21,723 bases of DNA from IMG/VR virus record IMGVR_UViG_3300044618_000039, positions 1-21,723 of that record. The stretch is one strand, 5' to 3'. The stretch is from a virus. The stretch's first letter is position 1. Each line of letters starts with the position of its first letter. This document shows positions 2,850-19,027 of the stretch, piece after piece. The translations under genes and the position numbers were made by a program. The notes below the pieces were generated by a model, which had not been told where the DNA came from, ran no database searches, and worked only from the letters and a program-made list of their open reading frames with translations.

Positions 2850-3431
2850 TTAGCAGTCATTACACGCCCCGAATTGACCGTAGGGGTAGGGGTAGTCAAG
2901 GTTGCTGATTCCCATTCGCCTGTTGCGGTCAAGGACCATCCCGGTTCGGTAGTTGGTTGCGTTCGGGTAGATCGTATCCAAAGCAGATGGAGGCGAGTTC
3001 CACAAGGGGTATGAATTGCGGTTCTCCATGAGGTAGCGGGTAATTCGCTCGGAGTACCACTCGGCATCGTTCTTGACCTTATCGGTTAGCCGTGTGATTT
3101 CTTCCATGCTCATTTGGGAGGATTCCTCGCTTGTTCTGCGGACCATTCCCTTGTTCATATACTTGAATGCAAGGACCATCGGCAACTCGTAGTAGAGCCA
3201 TTGAATCATTGCAGGCTGGATGTAGTCCTCCAGCAGGGTTTGGTTCAGGGCCGTAGTTGAACCGCTGACAACCTGCGTAACTAATTCCCCATACAACGGA
3301 GAGCCAACGATGGGTTGAATCCGCATCTCCTGCACCTTCACAACCGTTGGCCGAATTTGGGTGTAGGATACGTTCTCGTTGATTATCGAGTTGTCCAAGA
3401 GCGTTTCTTCGCTTATAAAGAGTGCCTTCAT
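2850..3431 (-). CDS. Head-tail connector/adaptor candidate (193 aa)
   Basis: A mainly helical protein starting MKALFISEETLLDNSIINEN, with IQPIVGSPLYGELVTQVVSG (37-56), LLEDYIQPAMIQWLYYELP and DAEWYSERITRYLMENRNSY. Such 'Q-P-I-x-G-x-x-L-Y' proteins usually follow portals in phages of Bacteroidota and I place them as neck adaptors. The C-terminus (PYPYGQFGACNDC) holds a Cys pair. It starts at an ATGA overlap with the portal stop, supporting a joint role at the portal ring. No enzymatic motif is visible. Confidence 0.6.
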   Translation of the reverse strand: MKALFISEETLLDNSIINENVSYTQIRPTVVKVQEMRIQPIVGSPLYGELVTQVVSGSTTALNQTLLEDYIQPAMIQWLYYELPMVLAFKYMNKGMVRRTSEESSQMSMEEITRLTDKVKNDAEWYSERITRYLMENRNSYPLWNSPPSALDTIYPNATNYRTGMVLDRNRRMGISNLDYPYPYGQFGACNDC

Positions 3432-5551
3432 GCCTTGCTGATTTTATTGCCTTTGCGGATAACGAGTTGCTGCTCCCAAACGTGCCTGCATTGTGGGCGA
3501 TTCACTCCGCTCGGTGTGTGATACCAACCGCCTCTGCGATTCCATACGGAATAGCCCATGATCGCACTAATTCCGTCGATGTCCTCCCTCGTGTAAACCT
3601 TGCCTTGCCCGGCCAAGTCAAGCATGACCTTGCAGAACTCACGGCTGGAGCCTTTGTCCTTGTTGCTGAAACCTGTCGCCCATGCGTATTTATAGCGGAC
3701 CTCCAGTACAGGCTCGGCAACTTCCTTCACGTTCTTGGGCAGGTTCTGCTCGGCTATCTTGTCCACGGCTCTGCTGATTGGGTAGCGGTCCTTGGTGATT
3801 AGGTAAGCGACTCGCTTGGCGACCTTCGCCTTGCTGACCCCGAACTCCTTTGCCATTTCTTCAACGCTGGCGTCCCGGTTCTTCTTGCGGTATGCTTCAA
3901 TCTTCAGGTCAAGTTCTTTCTCTTCTTCGCCTAATTCGGCAAAGGCCAAGCGGATGTTTTCGTCAATGTTGGCATCAAACCGCATCGGCTTTGAGTGCAT
4001 CACGTGGTAGTCGTCGGCATGGCTTCCAAACTTGCTTGCAACCACTTCCAAGACCTTGAACTCTTCGTCGCCCCATCCGTAGTCCTCATCGTCTTCTTGG
4101 CCCCATTGAGGCTCGCTGAACTCTTGGGACTGAACGCCCAGCATCGTGTCAATTTCTTGGGATGATAGACCGAACCCTGCTGATAGCATGGTCCGAGCCA
4201 TCTCCAGCGTGATTTTCTCTTGCATATACTGACGCACGATTCGCATCAGGTTTTGGTACTCACGGCCTGACAACTTCTTGATGTTGTCATTGCTCTGCAA
4301 GGCTTCCACGGCTTGCGGTTGCTCGTCGGGTTGGGGATTAGGTCCAACCACGTCGGCAGGTTTCTCAAGCGGTTGCAGACCTGCTTTTTCCCTCAATTCG
4401 TCTTGGGTCATAATCTGCAAGAGGGCTTGTTCGCTTAGTCGCTCCGTGATGGGTTCCACAGGTATCAGTTCCATCCCTTCCACGCCATTAAACGAACCGA
4501 GGTAGTTAATCATCCGCTCCACTTTGCGCACTCTGTCGTTGACGTAGGTGGCCTTGAATAGTTCGTAAGCCTCGACCAATTCGTTGCGACCACCTAATTG
4601 GCCCTCGGTCTTCACCCCGAAAAGCATTGGGTTGGTTACACGGTGTGCGATGAATATCTCTTGCTGAATAGCCTTGTTCAGGATTTCGAACTGCTTATCC
4701 ATGTCGCTCGGAGTGAGCGGTTCAAGTGTCGGGGCCTTGGCTGCATCGTCGTTGAAGGTTACCACAAAGCGACCAGCGTTGTCGGTTCCTGAAAACTTGC
4801 GTTTGATTTGACGCTCAATGTCGCCTTGCTCTTCGGGGGTCGGGATGCCGTTGTTGAAGTTTATTAGATATCCCCCCCAAAAGTTGTTGCGGAGGTTGTT
4901 GTTGTGGAAGTTGGCGACCTGTACGTCTGCCTCAATCCAAGCGTTGCCACCGATGTATTCGGGGAGAGGATAGTGCTTCACGCCTGCTGCGTAGACCCGA
5001 TAGTAGAACAACTGCTTTCCGAGGCGGTTCTCGGTGTCAAAGGCTGGAATCTTCTCGATGTCCCCGACCTTGGGGAAGAGTTGCATCATGTCATCGTTGT
5101 ACCAGTCAGCGACTTGGAACATCTTCTCCTCCTTGTCAACCCGAATCTTTTCGAAGGGAACGTGTTCCATCTTAGCGATGGTCCCCAACTTGGACCAAGT
5201 AATCGCAACGGCAAACCCGTTGAAAATCTCTAAGTCCAAGACCAATTTCTCCGTGATGTCGTTCAGGTCCTCCGTGCTGGAAAGTCCATCGAAGAACTTG
5301 ATGAGCCGGGCCTCTTGCTCGACAGTCAGGTTGTCCCCTGCCTGCCATCCACCGCCCATGATGTAATTGACCTTACCATTCACAATAGCGTTGTGCTTGC
5401 TTGACCTGCGATAGTTGTCCAGCAGGTAGTAGGGGTATTCGTTGGCAAAACCATAGGTGATGTACTTGCCGGACCTGTTTTCCAGCATCACTGGGACCTT
5501 ATGCTCTATCCCAAGCCATTGGGTAAAGTGTTGAGTAGATTTATTACTCAT
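3428..5551 (-). CDS. Portal protein fused to a long C-terminal extension
   Basis: Residues about 1-400 look like a phage portal: an ANEYPYYLLDNYRRSSKHNA start, the wing region, a block EQGDIERQIKRKFSG (241-255), then FNDDAAKAPTLEPLTPSDMD and HRVTNPMLFGVKTEGQLGG before the stem helices. The portal forms the dodecameric DNA channel and docks the terminase. The protein is 707 residues, long for a portal. After a Pro/Gln linker (400-415) come a helical region, an acidic stretch QEDDEDYGWGDEE (485-497), a helix-turn-helix-like segment (561-584) and a C-terminal domain with REFCKVML (637-644), YTREDIDGI and CRHVW (688-692), resembling part of head-morphogenesis (MuF/gp7-like) proteins. It is coupled on both sides by ATGA overlaps. 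Confidence 0.85.
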   Translation of the reverse strand: MSNKSTQHFTQWLGIEHKVPVMLENRSGKYITYGFANEYPYYLLDNYRRSSKHNAIVNGKVNYIMGGGWQAGDNLTVEQEARLIKFFDGLSSTEDLNDITEKLVLDLEIFNGFAVAITWSKLGTIAKMEHVPFEKIRVDKEEKMFQVADWYNDDMMQLFPKVGDIEKIPAFDTENRLGKQLFYYRVYAAGVKHYPLPEYIGGNAWIEADVQVANFHNNNLRNNFWGGYLINFNNGIPTPEEQGDIERQIKRKFSGTDNAGRFVVTFNDDAAKAPTLEPLTPSDMDKQFEILNKAIQQEIFIAHRVTNPMLFGVKTEGQLGGRNELVEAYELFKATYVNDRVRKVERMINYLGSFNGVEGMELIPVEPITERLSEQALLQIMTQDELREKAGLQPLEKPADVVGPNPQPDEQPQAVEALQSNDNIKKLSGREYQNLMRIVRQYMQEKITLEMARTMLSAGFGLSSQEIDTMLGVQSQEFSEPQWGQEDDEDYGWGDEEFKVLEVVASKFGSHADDYHVMHSKPMRFDANIDENIRLAFAELGEEEKELDLKIEAYRKKNRDASVEEMAKEFGVSKAKVAKRVAYLITKDRYPISRAVDKIAEQNLPKNVKEVAEPVLEVRYKYAWATGFSNKDKGSSREFCKVMLDLAGQGKVYTREDIDGISAIMGYSVWNRRGGWYHTPSGVNRPQCRHVWEQQLVIRKGNKISKA

Positions 5552-6521: not shown

Positions 6522-7598
6522 TCACAATTTGCGCCCAATCTGCCTGTATAGTTCGGCCCGTTTCTTCGCAGTTTCGGCCACATTAAACCGCTTCTTGATG
6601 TCGGCTGTGAGGTTGTCGGCCAAACCTTTGCGCAGGTCGGGGTCAAGAATCAACTGCTTAATGTACTTGTACCAGTCCTTGGGCTTGTTGTAAGGCACGA
6701 GAAACCCGTTCTCTCCGTGTTTGATTACGTCCGTGTAAGGGATGGTTTCGCTTGCAATGATGGCCTTATTCATCCACCCGGCCTCAACGACCTTCAACTC
6801 GGACTTGAGTTTGTTAAACTTGGTGTCCCGAAGCGGTGCAAGGGTAACGTTCACAAAGTTGTAGCCACCGACGTAGGAGTAGATGTCCGCTGCTTGGATT
6901 CGTCCGTAGTTCGGGTTGTTGCCTTGGTCGCTGATGATCTTCTCGTAGCCTTCATAGACAGGATTATTATCGTTCCACCCTCCGAGGTAGAGCCTGTACT
7001 TGCCGTCCAAGTTTGCATCCCAGCGTAACTTCTGCATCCCCTCTCGGAGTAGTTCCATGTCCTCTCCGTGCTGCGCACCCCCGAACCAACCGAACTTGAC
7101 GAGGTGTTTATCAGGTTCTTCGTCAGGATTCGGAATAAACTGCTGATAGGCTTCGTAGGGTTCGTTTTGCAATATGCTCACATTGGCGTTTAGAGGCCGT
7201 ATGCGGGCAGCAAGATGCTCGGTGGTACAAGTTACCCAATCGGCTAATTTGATGTGCTTACGGATGACCTCTGCGAGTTTGGTCTGGTGATAGTGGCGGT
7301 ACATGATGTGGCCGCTCTCAAGGACCCAATAGTCGTCCAAGTCAAGGATGACTTTCGCTCCGTATTGGGTCAGGGCCTTGTAAACGTTCTCCACTTGCTC
7401 CATCGTGCCTTGACACCACAAACGGCTGAACAGGAACAGGTCTATTGAACGAAGCCCCTCGTCGCTGATAGTCGTGATGTTCTCAACGCAGACGTAATCA
7501 AACTCCGGGTAGTTGTCGCCAAGGTAAGCGTTCGGCATTTCGAGGCGATAGAAACTGCAACCCGTTGGGTGAGCGTTATAGACAATGCAAATCTTCAT
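6522..7598 (-). CDS. GT-B (family 4-like) glycosyltransferase (358 aa)
   Basis: The start MKICIVYNAHPTGCSFYRL matches the N-terminal Rossmann strand of GT-B enzymes. DLDDYW (86-91) lies in the first domain. The second domain starts near KFGWFGGAQHGED (168-180) and holds LAPLRDTKFNKLKSELK (253-269) and EAGWMNKAIIASE, where the KSELK...E block should bind the nucleotide sugar. It is cytoplasmic, with no membrane segment. ATG at 7598 is used because upstream ATGs would add 15 residues that run through the terminator hairpin. It sits between tail-tube and small virion genes, apart from the other two glycosyltransferases. Virion-protein glycosylation is a possible role, by inference. Confidence 0.8.
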   Translation of the reverse strand: MKICIVYNAHPTGCSFYRLEMPNAYLGDNYPEFDYVCVENITTISDEGLRSIDLFLFSRLWCQGTMEQVENVYKALTQYGAKVILDLDDYWVLESGHIMYRHYHQTKLAEVIRKHIKLADWVTCTTEHLAARIRPLNANVSILQNEPYEAYQQFIPNPDEEPDKHLVKFGWFGGAQHGEDMELLREGMQKLRWDANLDGKYRLYLGGWNDNNPVYEGYEKIISDQGNNPNYGRIQAADIYSYVGGYNFVNVTLAPLRDTKFNKLKSELKVVEAGWMNKAIIASETIPYTDVIKHGENGFLVPYNKPKDWYKYIKQLILDPDLRKGLADNLTADIKKRFNVAETAKKRAELYRQIGRKL

Positions 7599-7604
7599 GG
7601 CCGT

Positions 7605-7638
7605 AAAAATAAGAAGGGCAGCCATTGCTGACTGCCCT
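7605..7638 (-). terminator. Rho-independent terminator after the tail-tube gene
   Basis: On the minus strand AGGGCAG (7638-7632) pairs perfectly with CTGCCCT (7621-7615) across a 10-nt loop, followed by TCTTATTTTT. It begins 38 nt after the tail-tube stop and ends just before the glycosyltransferase start at 7598. The loop is longer than ideal, so termination may be partial. Confidence 0.7.
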
Positions 7639-7675
7639 CCCAAACCTCAGATGATGAAAACCTGATGCGAAGATA

Positions 7676-15386: not shown

Positions 15387-16034
15387 TTATAGTTTGGTTG
15401 CTACGCTTATGGATTTGCCAAGGGTTTCAGCGATGGTGTTCACCAAAACGTCTATCATTTCGGGGGATAGGGCGTTAGACATGAAGTTCGTGGCCCGTGT
15501 TCCTCGTTGGAATACCCAATAGGCAACCGACCTACCATCCACCAATCCCTGCTCCTGCTTCGTCCGCATCCGCTTGAGTTCACGGGAATAGGTTGGCACA
15601 ACGGGTTTTTCCTTGTTGGCTATCCAATCGGCCATTGCTTGGGCAGGTGGGTACTTGTCCCTGTATTGGAATGGCGACCTCGGAGCCTTTAGGCTTGACG
15701 TTTTGCCTCGCACCCCTTGGTCCACATACTTCCAATAGGGGTTGGCCATGATGGCCACGACGATTTGCTTTGCGGATAGTTCGATGTCTTCGGGGGCGAT
15801 GGATGCGGATAGCGTTCCCCCTGCATTTGCGTTGGCTGCTTCGAGGTTTTTCTTCGCAAGTTCAATGACCCGTTCAATCCACTTGACCAGCACGTCGTGG
15901 GTTGGCGACTTGCCTCCACCCTTGGGGCCGAGGACTGAACCAATCCCCTCCAAAGCGGTTTGGTCGATGCCTTTCATCGAACCGCTGCCGAACTTGCCTA
16001 CGGGTTGGCCATTCGCAAGTATGGTTGTTTCCAT
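15387..16034 (-). CDS. HK97 gp10-like tail completion/neck protein candidate
   Basis: The 215-residue protein has a helical segment KWIERVIELAKKNLEAANAN (51-70), then the blocks NPYWKYVDQGVRG at 98-110 and AYWVFQRGTRATNFM at 171-185. The combination of a central aromatic 'Y-V-D/E-x-G' block and a later 'W-x-x-x-R/K-G-T/R' block recalls HK97 gp10-type proteins, which act at the head-tail joint or complete the tail. It is soluble and moderately basic. It begins 31 nt after the stop of the frameshifted chaperone form and ends one base before the next gene. A neck protein placed between chaperone and tail-tip genes is unusual, so a purely tail role remains possible. Confidence 0.5.
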   Translation of the reverse strand: METTILANGQPVGKFGSGSMKGIDQTALEGIGSVLGPKGGGKSPTHDVLVKWIERVIELAKKNLEAANANAGGTLSASIAPEDIELSAKQIVVAIMANPYWKYVDQGVRGKTSSLKAPRSPFQYRDKYPPAQAMADWIANKEKPVVPTYSRELKRMRTKQEQGLVDGRSVAYWVFQRGTRATNFMSNALSPEMIDVLVNTIAETLGKSISVATKL

Positions 16035-16065: not shown

Positions 16066-16811
16066 CTATCTGCGCCTCGCTCGCTCCGCCTCCATCCTCT
16101 CTGCTTCCAAGATGTCGTGAATCAGCAGGGCGTAATTCAAGAACTCCACCGCCTTCATCGCGAAGATGGCATCAAACTTGAGAACGTCCTTGTTGGCCAT
16201 CCGCCAGACGACCATGAGCCAACCGTACCCAGCAAGAGGGCTTACGTCAACTCCCCTGCCGTCTTCATCAGGTGCTTGGAATAGTCGCTCAAAACTTTCA
16301 AGTAGGATTCTGAACTTAGCAAAAAAAAACTGACAACCCCCCAAACGTCCCCGACCTTGGCGTGCTTCTTCATTAGTTCGGCTCGCTCGGCATGGGCAGC
16401 CCCGTCGTACTTTTTCGGAAATAATCCGAATAGACCGCCATCCCTGCACAAGGTCGCCATGATTCGGTGGAGGTTCTGCAACAACTGCTTCTCGTCCGTG
16501 GTGTTTGCGTCCATGAGTTCTATCAACTGCCCAGCGGTCAACTCGTCCGTGAACACGGTAGGAATCCACCACTTGCCCCCGGCTTTGAACTTTCGCTTAT
16601 ACCCAAGGGCAGGCAATGCGTTCCACTCGCTGATAATGGTCTTGTAACGCTTTAGGACGCTCTTGGCGGGCATTTCCCTCACGATTGATATATCGACCCC
16701 CTCAACGATTGCGACGACTCCTGCACGCTTGTCGTAGTCCCCAAGGACGCTGGAGAACTCAATGGCTCCGATGCGTTGGAACTGGTCGATGGTCAGGTCT
16801 TGGAGTTTCAT
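16066..16811 (-). CDS. Tail assembly chaperone, -1 frameshift (GT-like) form
   Basis: A -1 slip on T TTT TTG (16326-16320) continues the 189-aa chaperone into the overlapping frame. The predicted product has 164 zero-frame residues plus 84 new ones, 248 in all. The extension contains SPLAGYGWLMVVWRMANKDV and ends in a charged helix rich in Glu and Arg (EAERMEAERARRR). It stops with TAG at 16066, 31 nt before the next gene. The unshifted gene alone would leave 207 nt uncoded in a genome with almost no gaps, which is good support for real use of this frame. An alternative is a homopolymer error in the assembly, in which case the 248-aa protein would be the only product. Confidence 0.7.
16242..16811 (-). 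CDS. Tail assembly chaperone, short (G-like) form
   Basis: The unshifted frame gives 189 residues, starting MKLQDLTIDQFQRIGAIEFS. It is mostly helical and polar, with no membrane segment. I recognise it chiefly by context and architecture. It precedes the tail completion, tail-tip and tape-measure genes, and near its end it runs over nine T's (codons 161-164, AGT TTT TTT TTG), where a -1 shift opens a long second frame. This is the G/GT arrangement of long-tailed phages, in which the short form coats the tape measure during tail assembly and the shifted form recruits tail-tube protein. If the frame is kept, 25 more residues follow the slip site. Function is inferred; the family could not be confirmed by homology here. 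Confidence 0.65.
   Translation of the reverse strand: MKLQDLTIDQFQRIGAIEFSSVLGDYDKRAGVVAIVEGVDISIVREMPAKSVLKRYKTIISEWNALPALGYKRKFKAGGKWWIPTVFTDELTAGQLIELMDANTTDEKQLLQNLHRIMATLCRDGGLFGLFPKKYDGAAHAERAELMKKHAKVGDVWGVVSFFLLSSESYLKVLSDYSKHLMKTAGELT
16320..16331 (-). promoter_or_regulatory. Programmed -1 frameshift slippery site (run of nine T's)
   Basis: On the coding strand the sequence is AG followed by nine T's and G. In zero frame it reads AGT TTT TTT TTG. Both T TTT TTT and T TTT TTG fit the X XXY YYZ slippery rule, with full re-pairing possible for Phe tRNA. The frame entered by -1 slipping is open for 84 codons. I did not identify a convincing downstream pseudoknot by eye. Such sites in tail chaperones usually set a fixed ratio of short to long product. 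Confidence 0.65.
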
Positions 16812-16814
16812 AGG

Positions 16815-17324
16815 TCAGTAGTTTATGTAGTAGCCGTACACCGCATCCCCAACGAGCAATTTCAGTTCGGGGTATCTCAACGCCATTACTTCGGGGGTCA
16901 GGTCGGGTTGCCAATGCGTTTCGTACACATTCCCTTCCCATTCGCCCTGCCTGTACATATAAGGCACGGCAATCATGACCCTCTTGCCATTCATTCGGGT
17001 AAGCAGGTCCCTCGCCTCGTTAAAGGTTAAATGCTCAAAAACATCGCCCATAATCAGGTAGGTGTAGGCCGAAAAATCGAACTCACGAATATCCCCAATA
17101 TGCAGGGTTTGGTAAAGGTCCTGCAAACCGAATCGGTTGACATACGGCTCGTGAATCTCGATGCCGTCCATCTTGATTTCGGGAAGCAGCAGGGCGTAAG
17201 TTCCGCAACCGCATCCAATGTCAAGCACCCGGTCGGATTCAGTTAGAACCGATCGGATATGGTTGCCAACAAAGTCCTTGTGGAATGGGTGTGAGTAGGG
17301 CATATTATCCGATTTGAAGTCCAT
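16815..17324 (-). CDS. Class I SAM-dependent methyltransferase (169 aa)
   Basis: A compact Rossmann-fold methyltransferase. Motif I is VLDIGCGCG at 33-41, the acidic end of strand 2 is E56 in DGIEIHEP, and the motif IV-like segment is MGDVFEHL at 92-99. The GDVFEHL form is typical of small-molecule or sugar methyltransferases of the Methyltransf_11/23 type, not of DNA methyltransferases, which would carry a DPPY or PC motif. Two starts are possible. ATG at 17324 overlaps the previous gene by 20 nt. ATG at 17303 (MPYSHPFHKDF) follows the previous TAA by one base and fits the local packing better. Next to two glycosyltransferase-type genes, it may methylate the transferred sugar. Confidence 0.8.
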   Translation of the reverse strand: MDFKSDNMPYSHPFHKDFVGNHIRSVLTESDRVLDIGCGCGTYALLLPEIKMDGIEIHEPYVNRFGLQDLYQTLHIGDIREFDFSAYTYLIMGDVFEHLTFNEARDLLTRMNGKRVMIAVPYMYRQGEWEGNVYETHWQPDLTPEVMALRYPELKLLVGDAVYGYYINY

Positions 17325-18048
17325 CGGCTATCTTCTTGGCCGTGCTGGAGTGGTTTGCTTTGTCAAGGTACTGCCGAAACTCCCAGTCCGAGTTCATCTC
17401 AACGGGCGTGATGTAGTAGGGCAGATGCCTCACCTCATAGGGGGCCAAAGTCCTCGCACCGCTAATGCATACTTGGTAGGTGTCGGCATGGTAGAAGGCG
17501 AAGGTCGTATCAACTGGAGCCAAGCGAAGGTTGCCATAGGTCGGCTGCTTGTGGTAGCGATGTTCAGCAGGTTGGAAGAATAGGGCGTTTTCGGGAACGT
17601 CGTCAACACGAATGCCGAGGCCAATTTTGTCCTTGACGTTGAACTGCACCCCATTGAAGTCCTTGGCTTCTTCGTCCCGATAGATGTAAGGGTAGGAAGG
17701 TGAATCGTACCAAAGTTCACGCATTCGAACGATGGTGTCGTCAGGGCATCCCGAAAGGTCGAGGTCGGGGTCGGTTACGATGTAATCGGGGTAGCCAAAG
17801 TCGGCTTTGATGCGTTTGTCAATGCCGAGTCTCCATGCCACAAGATGTCCCAAGTTCTGCCCGGTACGGACCACCGAAACGTCCTCGTTACCTTTGAGCG
17901 ATTCGTACCACTCCAAGGTAGGGCCGTAAGTTGAACCGTTGTCAATGATGATGATGGGACCGCATTCCTTCATCCGTTGCAGTTCCTTGACCATTGCCTT
18001 GGGCCAAGTGAAAAGATTAAAGTTGGTAATGAGGATAGGGACCTTCAT
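17305..18048 (-). CDS. Family 2-type glycosyltransferase (247 aa)
   Basis: The N-terminus has the GT-A Rossmann start PILITNFNL (4-12), then IIIIDNGST (32-40), the usual nucleotide-sugar-binding strand and loop of family 2 enzymes. DPDLD at 93-97 supplies the DxD-type metal-binding acids. The region around GNLRLAPVDTTFAFYHAD may form the acceptor side. No membrane segment is visible, so it should act in the cytoplasm. It starts 1 nt after the stop of the preceding glycosyltransferase-like gene and its stop touches the methyltransferase gene. Likely targets are a virion protein or a surface or carrier sugar; the sequence does not decide which. Confidence 0.8.
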   Translation of the reverse strand: MKVPILITNFNLFTWPKAMVKELQRMKECGPIIIIDNGSTYGPTLEWYESLKGNEDVSVVRTGQNLGHLVAWRLGIDKRIKADFGYPDYIVTDPDLDLSGCPDDTIVRMRELWYDSPSYPYIYRDEEAKDFNGVQFNVKDKIGLGIRVDDVPENALFFQPAEHRYHKQPTYGNLRLAPVDTTFAFYHADTYQVCISGARTLAPYEVRHLPYYITPVEMNSDWEFRQYLDKANHSSTAKKIADGLQIG

Positions 18049-18049
18049 G

Positions 18050-18703
18050 CTAAAACGTGATTACAAACTTTTCGGGACCCGGCCATCCGGGGTTGGAGTC
18101 GTGGACCTTGGTGTCGGGTTTCTTCCCTATCCAATGCTCGGCCTGCCAGCGTTGCTTGCGTTCCGGCTCACCCAGTTCCTTGATGTGGGACGACTTGGCC
18201 CACCAATAGGTCCCCCCAAAATAGGGGTAGCCTTCGGGGTTGTTGTGGTCAGCCATGTGAGGGAATTGTTCTTTTGTAATCCAATGGCATCCCACCGCAT
18301 CCACGCCTTCCAGCAGTTGCAAGCATCGCTCCCAAGCCACGACGTTGAAGAAGGTCATGCTGCGATTCCAAAGTTGGTTGATGAGGGACGGGTCGCTTGC
18401 CCCCTTGGTGTGGGCGTACATGTACACGGCTTCTTCTTCTTGACTTGCCCGGTACATCTCGGTCAGGGTCGCCTGCTCCCAAGCGTTGGTCCGGGTAACC
18501 ACGACTTTGACCTTATCGGCTATCATCGAGTTTTCCAGCACCTCCTTGACCGCCTTGCGTTGTTCGGGTGGTCCGACGATGCCGACACGGATTTCGTCCA
18601 AGACATTGATGAGGCCGTAATTGCAAACCGCCATCATATGCTGGTTGAGTATTAACTGCCAGTTGCCTCCGCAGTAGATGTGGTAGTAGTGAACGACTTT
18701 CAT
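18050..18703 (-). CDS. Glycosyltransferase-like protein (217 aa)
   Basis: The protein starts MKVVHYYHIYCGGNWQLIL and carries YAHTKGAS at 96-103, FGGTYWWAKSSHI at 162-174 and AEHWIG at 188-193. These blocks recall a small family of phage and bacterial proteins grouped with GT-A-type glycosyltransferases, where the HTKG and G-x-(F/Y)-WW-AKS segments are the conserved signature. No classical DxD motif is evident, so the sugar donor and activity are inferred only. The ATG at 18703 is preferred over a TTG at 18712, because it overlaps the preceding TGA as ATGA. It is followed one base later by a second glycosyltransferase and then a methyltransferase, suggesting a shared sugar-modifying pathway. 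Confidence 0.65.
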   Translation of the reverse strand: MKVVHYYHIYCGGNWQLILNQHMMAVCNYGLINVLDEIRVGIVGPPEQRKAVKEVLENSMIADKVKVVVTRTNAWEQATLTEMYRASQEEEAVYMYAHTKGASDPSLINQLWNRSMTFFNVVAWERCLQLLEGVDAVGCHWITKEQFPHMADHNNPEGYPYFGGTYWWAKSSHIKELGEPERKQRWQAEHWIGKKPDTKVHDSNPGWPGPEKFVITF

Positions 18704-18801
18704 AAGGTCCAAAGGAGGGTTAGAAGGGTGAGGATGAAGAAAACGGCTGCAAGCGTCTTGCCGATTTCGATTAGCAGGTCAAGGATTTGTTCCTTGTTCA
18801 T
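18700..18801 (-). CDS. Single-pass membrane microprotein (33 aa)
   Basis: A very short frame encodes MNKEQILDLLIEIGKTL followed by a hydrophobic stretch AAVFFILTLLTLLWTL that reaches the C-terminus, enough for one membrane pass. The start lies inside the end of the 82-aa gene. The stop overlaps the next ATG as ATGA, so the frame fits the gapless packing on both sides and fills an otherwise uncoded stretch of about 75 bases. An AAGG sequence sits 7 nt before the chosen ATG; an ATG directly upstream at 18804 would add one Met. Small one-pass proteins in phages can act in lysis, membrane perturbation or superinfection exclusion, but nothing in the sequence chooses among these. Confidence 0.55.
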   Translation of the reverse strand: MNKEQILDLLIEIGKTLAAVFFILTLLTLLWTL

Positions 18802-19027
18802 CATTGAACCTTGCACTTGTTGCACTTGTAAATTCAATAAACTCCTCTGGCGCATACTTCTTGCCAACTCCAATCGGGTCTTTGGTGTATGCCACAAGTT
18901 CTGCCATCGCTTCCTCAATGCTCTCAGAGGCAAATGACTTGCATCCCACCTTGACAAGGCATCCTCGGTCAAAGAATATGATTTCAACATTCCATTGCTT
19001 TAATCGTCTGATTTGTTCCTGTGTCAT
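18779..19027 (-). CDS. Small unknown protein (82 aa)
   Basis: I do not recognise this protein. It begins MTQEQIRRLKQWNVEIIFFD, has a basic amphipathic start, a short hydrophobic strand (VEIIFFDRGCLVKVG) and an acidic helical middle (SIEEAMAELVAYTKDP). There is no signal peptide or membrane segment, and the tail is polar. It looks like a small soluble alpha/beta protein. It starts 25 nt after the large-terminase stop, and its 3' end overlaps the next small membrane gene. The leader before ATG is ACTAAACCCCTAAACA, without a Shine-Dalgarno motif; a near-identical leader precedes the capsid gene. Position after terL suggests an accessory role, but no function can be assigned. Confidence 0.7.
   Translation of the reverse strand: MTQEQIRRLKQWNVEIIFFDRGCLVKVGCKSFASESIEEAMAELVAYTKDPIGVGKKYAPEEFIEFTSATSARFNDEQGTNP

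Follow-up and report, generated by a model that had tools for sequence, protein, structure and literature searches.

A conserved run of nine T's as a candidate site of RNA polymerase slippage in a probable tail assembly chaperone gene of tailed phages

The virus record IMGVR_UViG_3300044618_000039 (positions 1 to 21,723; this whole 21,723-nt stretch, as analysed here, is referred to as the window) holds a gene of the probable tail assembly chaperone type in which a run of nine T's precedes the end of the first open reading frame, and this locus raises the question whether two reading frames are joined at the run and, if so, which machine slips there. A -1 programmed frameshift had been predicted from the letters alone, and the layout on which this prediction was built was recovered in full. 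The run, read as AGT TTT TTT TTG in the frame of the gene and thereby including the heptamer T_TTT_TTT, is exactly nine T's long, the -1 frame stays open for 84 codons past it (85 when the re-read TTT is counted), its TAG is followed after 31 nt by the ATG of the next gene at 16034, and 207 nt (16241-16035) would be empty without the shift. A -1 shift yields a long form of 163 + 85 = 248 aa. The accompanying assumption that a run of either 8 or 10 T's would create one continuous frame holds true for T10, and likewise for T7, whereas T8 leads to a TAA after one codon. The features are collected in Table 1.

Table 1. Features of the candidate chaperone locus and of its surroundings in the window
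Feature	Position	Strand	Remark
0-frame ORF, short (G-like) form, 189 aa	16242..16811	-	ATG 16811 to TAA 16242, stop included
Slippery T9 run, codons AGT TTT TTT TTG	16321..16329	-	A9 on the plus strand
T-like extension in the -1 frame, 85 codons counting the re-read TTT	16066..16323	-	TAG 16068-16066 included
+1-frame TAA closing the frame reached by one-base loss in the run	16316..16318	-	one codon past the run
Next gene, 215 aa, phrog_29822, unknown function	15387..16034	-	follows the chaperone gene
Tape measure protein gene, 502 aa	10462..11970	-	PHROG tape measure families, E down to 1e-9

A scan of viral contigs with the 0-frame protein yielded 422 relatives, and in the best 80 of these 422, which were retrieved from separately assembled contigs, T9 is found at the same place throughout (80/80), coming along with a 0-frame product of 189 aa in all 80 and with an identical position of the extension stop codon wherever the relative's contig extends that far. 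Neither a run of 8 or 10 T's nor a second frame lacking conservation, both of which had been named beforehand as speaking against the shift, was encountered among these 80. The proposed comparison of codon conservation in both frames was carried out with the 56 distinct sequences of this set and revealed that the 0-frame pattern of position-3 variation gives way to a -1-frame pattern at the run: before it, 114 of 159 variable sites locate to codon position 3 of the 0 frame and 7 to position 2, while past the 0-frame stop 48 of 58 locate to position 3 of the -1 frame and one to position 2. Where both frames overlap, variation is damped, as dual coding predicts. Phe is mostly encoded by TTC elsewhere in the gene, but at the site by TTT in 56/56 sequences, and the Ser codon at the site is AGT in 56/56. 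These close relatives have no start codon in the stretch from the run to the 0-frame stop, and in two of them a -1-frame TAG resides immediately 5' of the run; entry into the -1 frame therefore has to occur at the run. Both the invariance of T9 and the substitution patterns exceed chance by far, and two coding frames are judged to be used, with the switch between them confined to the T run.

More distant relatives were approached from several sides. A tblastn search of phage isolates with both window parts gave no match, and 26 pattern matches in GTDB genomes contained no relative, but a search with the capsid protein identified Nonlabens phage P12024S and Microcystis phage Mea-Yong924-1. In P12024S, gp38 carries T9 (CTT TTT TTT TAT), and its -1 frame spans the annotated gp39. 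A scan with gp38 identified 63 relatives, the most distant at 25% identity, of which 62 have T9 and one has T10; no relatives of the Mea-Yong924-1 protein were found in IMG/VR. Because one earlier search peptide overlapped the site, three repeat searches were carried out with only the downstream part of the extension, using differing lead sequences, and here the run was present in all 239 matches with a complete site, one further contig ending before the run. Altogether, the searches gave 383 records, in which some contigs recur; they contain 298 distinct 150-nt sites, 231 with T9, 65 with T10, one with T12 and one with T8. When these were grouped at 60% identity, 36 of 37 clusters were found to possess at least nine T's and 32 exactly nine. 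The site occurs in all three codon phases, always with T_TTT_TTT in frame, and alternative heptamers such as A_AAA_AAG were seen in no lineage sampled. Lineages with T10 still need a shift, since their extension stays -1 relative to the upstream ORF. The sole T8 lineage (L275, L281; run near 3001 minus 97 nt) offers a natural test of whether a length of at least nine T's is required. The named hosts of the relatives are mainly Bacteroidota.

The two parts joined by the shift are also recognizable as one protein. When fused in silico, the window clade matches the other T-run lineages, a set which takes in the P12024S relatives, in profile-profile comparison with a probability of 98.5% (E 3e-15, 232 columns), and the extension alone does so with 91.7% (E 8e-7), while two unrelated window proteins used as controls score below 1%. 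The fused proteins of these other lineages in turn match, with 98.7% (E 2.5e-16, 236 columns) and in register across the shift point, the single-frame proteins of Duneviridae (Flavobacterium phages 2A and laban6-1, Cellulophaga phage Ingeline_1) and of Mea-Yong924-1, which belong to phrog_25418 and are encoded by one continuous ORF of about 274-302 aa. As the direct match between the window clade and this single-frame set is weak (13%), their link goes through the other lineages. At the place corresponding to the shift, the single-frame homologues possess Phe-Phe, in one case Tyr-Phe, and Mea-Yong924-1 has only T6 there, with no shift needed. Mea-Yong924-1 (28730-29554) and the Duneviridae appear to make the long form only. 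Flavobacterium phage 6H (2459-3400) has an interrupted single-frame homologue, in contrast to phage 2A (2459-3340): about 2 extra nt are present near the part encoding the C-terminus, which may reflect an error or decay.

What stands of the original prediction is a -1 switch at the T run with a short product of 189 aa and a long one of 248 aa, as known for G and GT; the ribosome as its agent is somewhat less probable than RNA polymerase. Slippage of the ribosome would mean that the P- and A-site tRNA-Phe pair slips back by one base on U_UUU_UUU. The very sequence data which document use of the -1 frame fit this as well, T_TTT_TTT is in frame in every lineage (although any run of nine implies that), and the product layout equals that of G/GT (PMC5009743). 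The length of the run, however, exceeds what the ribosome needs. In phase NNT TTT TTT TTN, to which six clusters including the window's belong, T7 would be enough for a ribosomal slip, yet T9 is always found; in phase NTT TTT TTT TNN, T8 is needed and T9 or longer is found except in one T8 cluster, and phase TTT TTT TTT TNN comes with T10. The flanking codons compensate in a manner that holds at least nine T's, with Fisher p 1.2e-5 and permutation p 6e-5 for the 37 clusters at 60% identity, and with Fisher p 1.4e-3 and permutation p 5.7e-3 for 15 clusters at 50% identity, these values being optimistic because the clusters are related and hence not independent. RNA structure 5-64 nt downstream was not found to be enriched (mean z +0.32, 0/30 below -2) in a test covering pseudoknot-free structures, and no signal of an upstream stem-loop stimulator was obtained. 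The third frame was likewise informative: a +1-frame stop lies at most three codons past the run in 33 of 37 clusters, as compared to an expectation of 36% derived from upstream positions of the same genes (30-cluster set), and in the window clade it is a TAA one codon past the run in 81/81. Different codons serve this end, namely TAA in the window clade and in L249, TGA in L286, L235 and L376, and TAG in L244. Dual coding of a shared motif, TATCATTTAGG (TTTAGG), may partly account for both the flanking T's and the +1 stop.

T runs with n>8 have been given for transcriptional slippage (PMC3711429), and a run of 9A or 9T that is length-conserved among homologues was considered very likely to reflect purposeful transcriptional slippage (Baranov et al., PMC1088944). 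The RNA:DNA hybrid within RNA polymerase comprises 9-10 bp (PMC5009743), which would provide a physical reason for the run length. Slippage of RNA polymerase is favoured because the run of at least nine T's goes beyond need, its flanks compensate, structure is not enriched and a +1 stop is close, and from comparative evidence of this kind it is considered somewhat more probable than -1 ribosomal frameshifting. RNA polymerase would slip on T9, adding or dropping bases, as weak rU:dA pairing fills most of the RNA:DNA hybrid. Most mRNAs would retain U9 and give the short form, U10 mRNAs would present one continuous frame for the long form, and U8 mRNAs would terminate at the TAA just past the run; the role of both forms towards the tape measure protein would then be that of G and GT. 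The explanation as a whole, i.e., a probable tail chaperone made in two forms whose ratio is set via RNA polymerase slippage, is likewise regarded as moderately probable. In the wider sense, we see an even chance that polymerase slippage at T9-T10, in place of ribosomal frameshifting, sets the ratio of two chaperone-like forms in a large and diverse group of tailed phages whose hosts are probably Bacteroidota, a nearby stop closing the third frame, and that Duneviridae possess the fused form only.

Ribosomal frameshifting nevertheless retains a substantial, if lesser, probability. Known phage chaperones mostly use it, a longer U run might boost ribosomal slipping where a stimulator is absent, and the one T8 cluster counts against a slippage length rule. 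A run longer than seven T's throughout the clusters of the phase for which seven would be enough, the compensating flanks and the lack of any alternative heptamer argue against the ribosome, as does the lack of enriched downstream structure, such a stimulator being common but not universal. Both processes may contribute. Far less probable is the assumption of two separate genes, with the downstream part translated from its own start codon, for which an ATG in the -1 frame, about 27 nt past the 0-frame stop, could be invoked as the only one of that frame. Constraint on the -1 frame reaches upstream of this ATG, which is hence not the start; ATG, GTG and TTG are absent from the first 25 extension codons in 253 of 303 records; and, next to the missing start codons ahead of the 0-frame stop and the TAG directly before the run in two relatives, distant relatives carry both parts joined in a single frame. 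A separate downstream gene was rejected for the upstream constraint, the start-less extension and the fused homologues. Least credible is that sequencing error conceals a true T10 run with a single frame, or that the gene decays: homopolymers are error-prone, but this reading was rejected as contradicted by the relatives, with T9 in 80 separate contigs and in the isolate genome of P12024S, the same arrangement in 37 clusters and an overlap constrained in both frames.

With respect to the identity of the protein, a tail assembly chaperone is judged likely on the basis of the two-form layout and of the location ahead of the tape measure gene. At the level of sequence, two features typical of G/GT-type genes are found: a common N-terminus with the frameshift placed late in the first ORF, and proximity to a tape measure gene lying downstream. 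The distance of three genes, pointed out in the original prediction as a peculiarity, was verified and turned out to be usual in this group, as Cellulophaga phage Ingeline_1 has two intervening genes and Mea-Yong924-1 has four. The tail-tube gene, said in the same prediction to lie far from the signal, was not located with confidence. Pfam gave no family match and PHROG no named family; the relatives fall into phrog_32199 or, if encoded in a single frame, into phrog_25418, both of unknown function. AlphaFold2 predicted the 0-frame product as a mostly helical domain (pLDDT 87.7), whose structural neighbours are uncharacterised phage proteins, one of them from P12024S. A PDB fold search returned HK97 gp13 (2ob9) only at E 7.9, which is not significant, and one viral protein named tail assembly chaperone was matched at E 0.17.

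Several neighbouring genes of the window, all on the minus strand, deserve mention in their own right. Between the terminase and the chaperone gene, 16815-18712 holds two glycosyltransferase-like genes and one methyltransferase-like gene (by eye); in P12024S the chaperone gene directly follows the terminase, and the window's genes are possibly an inserted modification cassette. Another glycosyltransferase-like gene (by eye) is located at 6522-7643 among structural genes, downstream of the capsid gene. At 18700-19027, ORFs of 96 and 82 aa overlap heavily in different frames of the same strand, and the portal protein (3428-5551, 707 aa) has a long C-terminal part past the portal-family match, perhaps a fused minor head domain.

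Chaperones made in two forms and slippage at T9 are each already known; a limited literature search found no paper on slippage in phage tail chaperone genes, which is no proof of novelty. If RNA polymerase slips here, the site would be a transcription-level parallel to textbook ribosomal recoding, with the ratio of the proteins determined in the mRNA pool. The site, being short, lends itself to direct tests, and P12024S is an isolate possessing it. The frameshift furthermore explains the hypothetical genes gp38 and gp39 of P12024S as well as their relatives in many environmental phage genomes.

Compared to lambda G/GT, the gene described here is likewise predicted to give rise to a short and a long form with a common N-terminus by a -1 shift near the end of the first ORF, and it too resides upstream of the tape measure gene. 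It differs in that three genes intervene, in that a T run of nine or more replaces the GGGAAAG-like heptamer, and in that the slipping machine is probably a different one. HK97 gp13 has no detectable sequence similarity and no significant fold similarity to the protein. With the T9 run of Shigella mxiE and the 9A/9T runs of IS elements (PMC3711429, PMC1088944) it shares the conserved length, the second-frame product and the dispensability of a nearby stimulator, slippage at mxiE amounting to 20-30% (PMC4256274); those sites, however, serve a secretion activator and a transposase, respectively, whereas the site described here, where slippage is predicted, belongs to a phage structural-assembly gene. 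The closest counterpart among isolates is the homologous pair gp38/gp39 of P12024S (phrog_32199), which has T9 at the same place but in another codon phase and is annotated as two separate hypothetical genes, while the homologues of Duneviridae and Mea-Yong924-1 comprise the same two parts near the tape measure gene in a single ORF.
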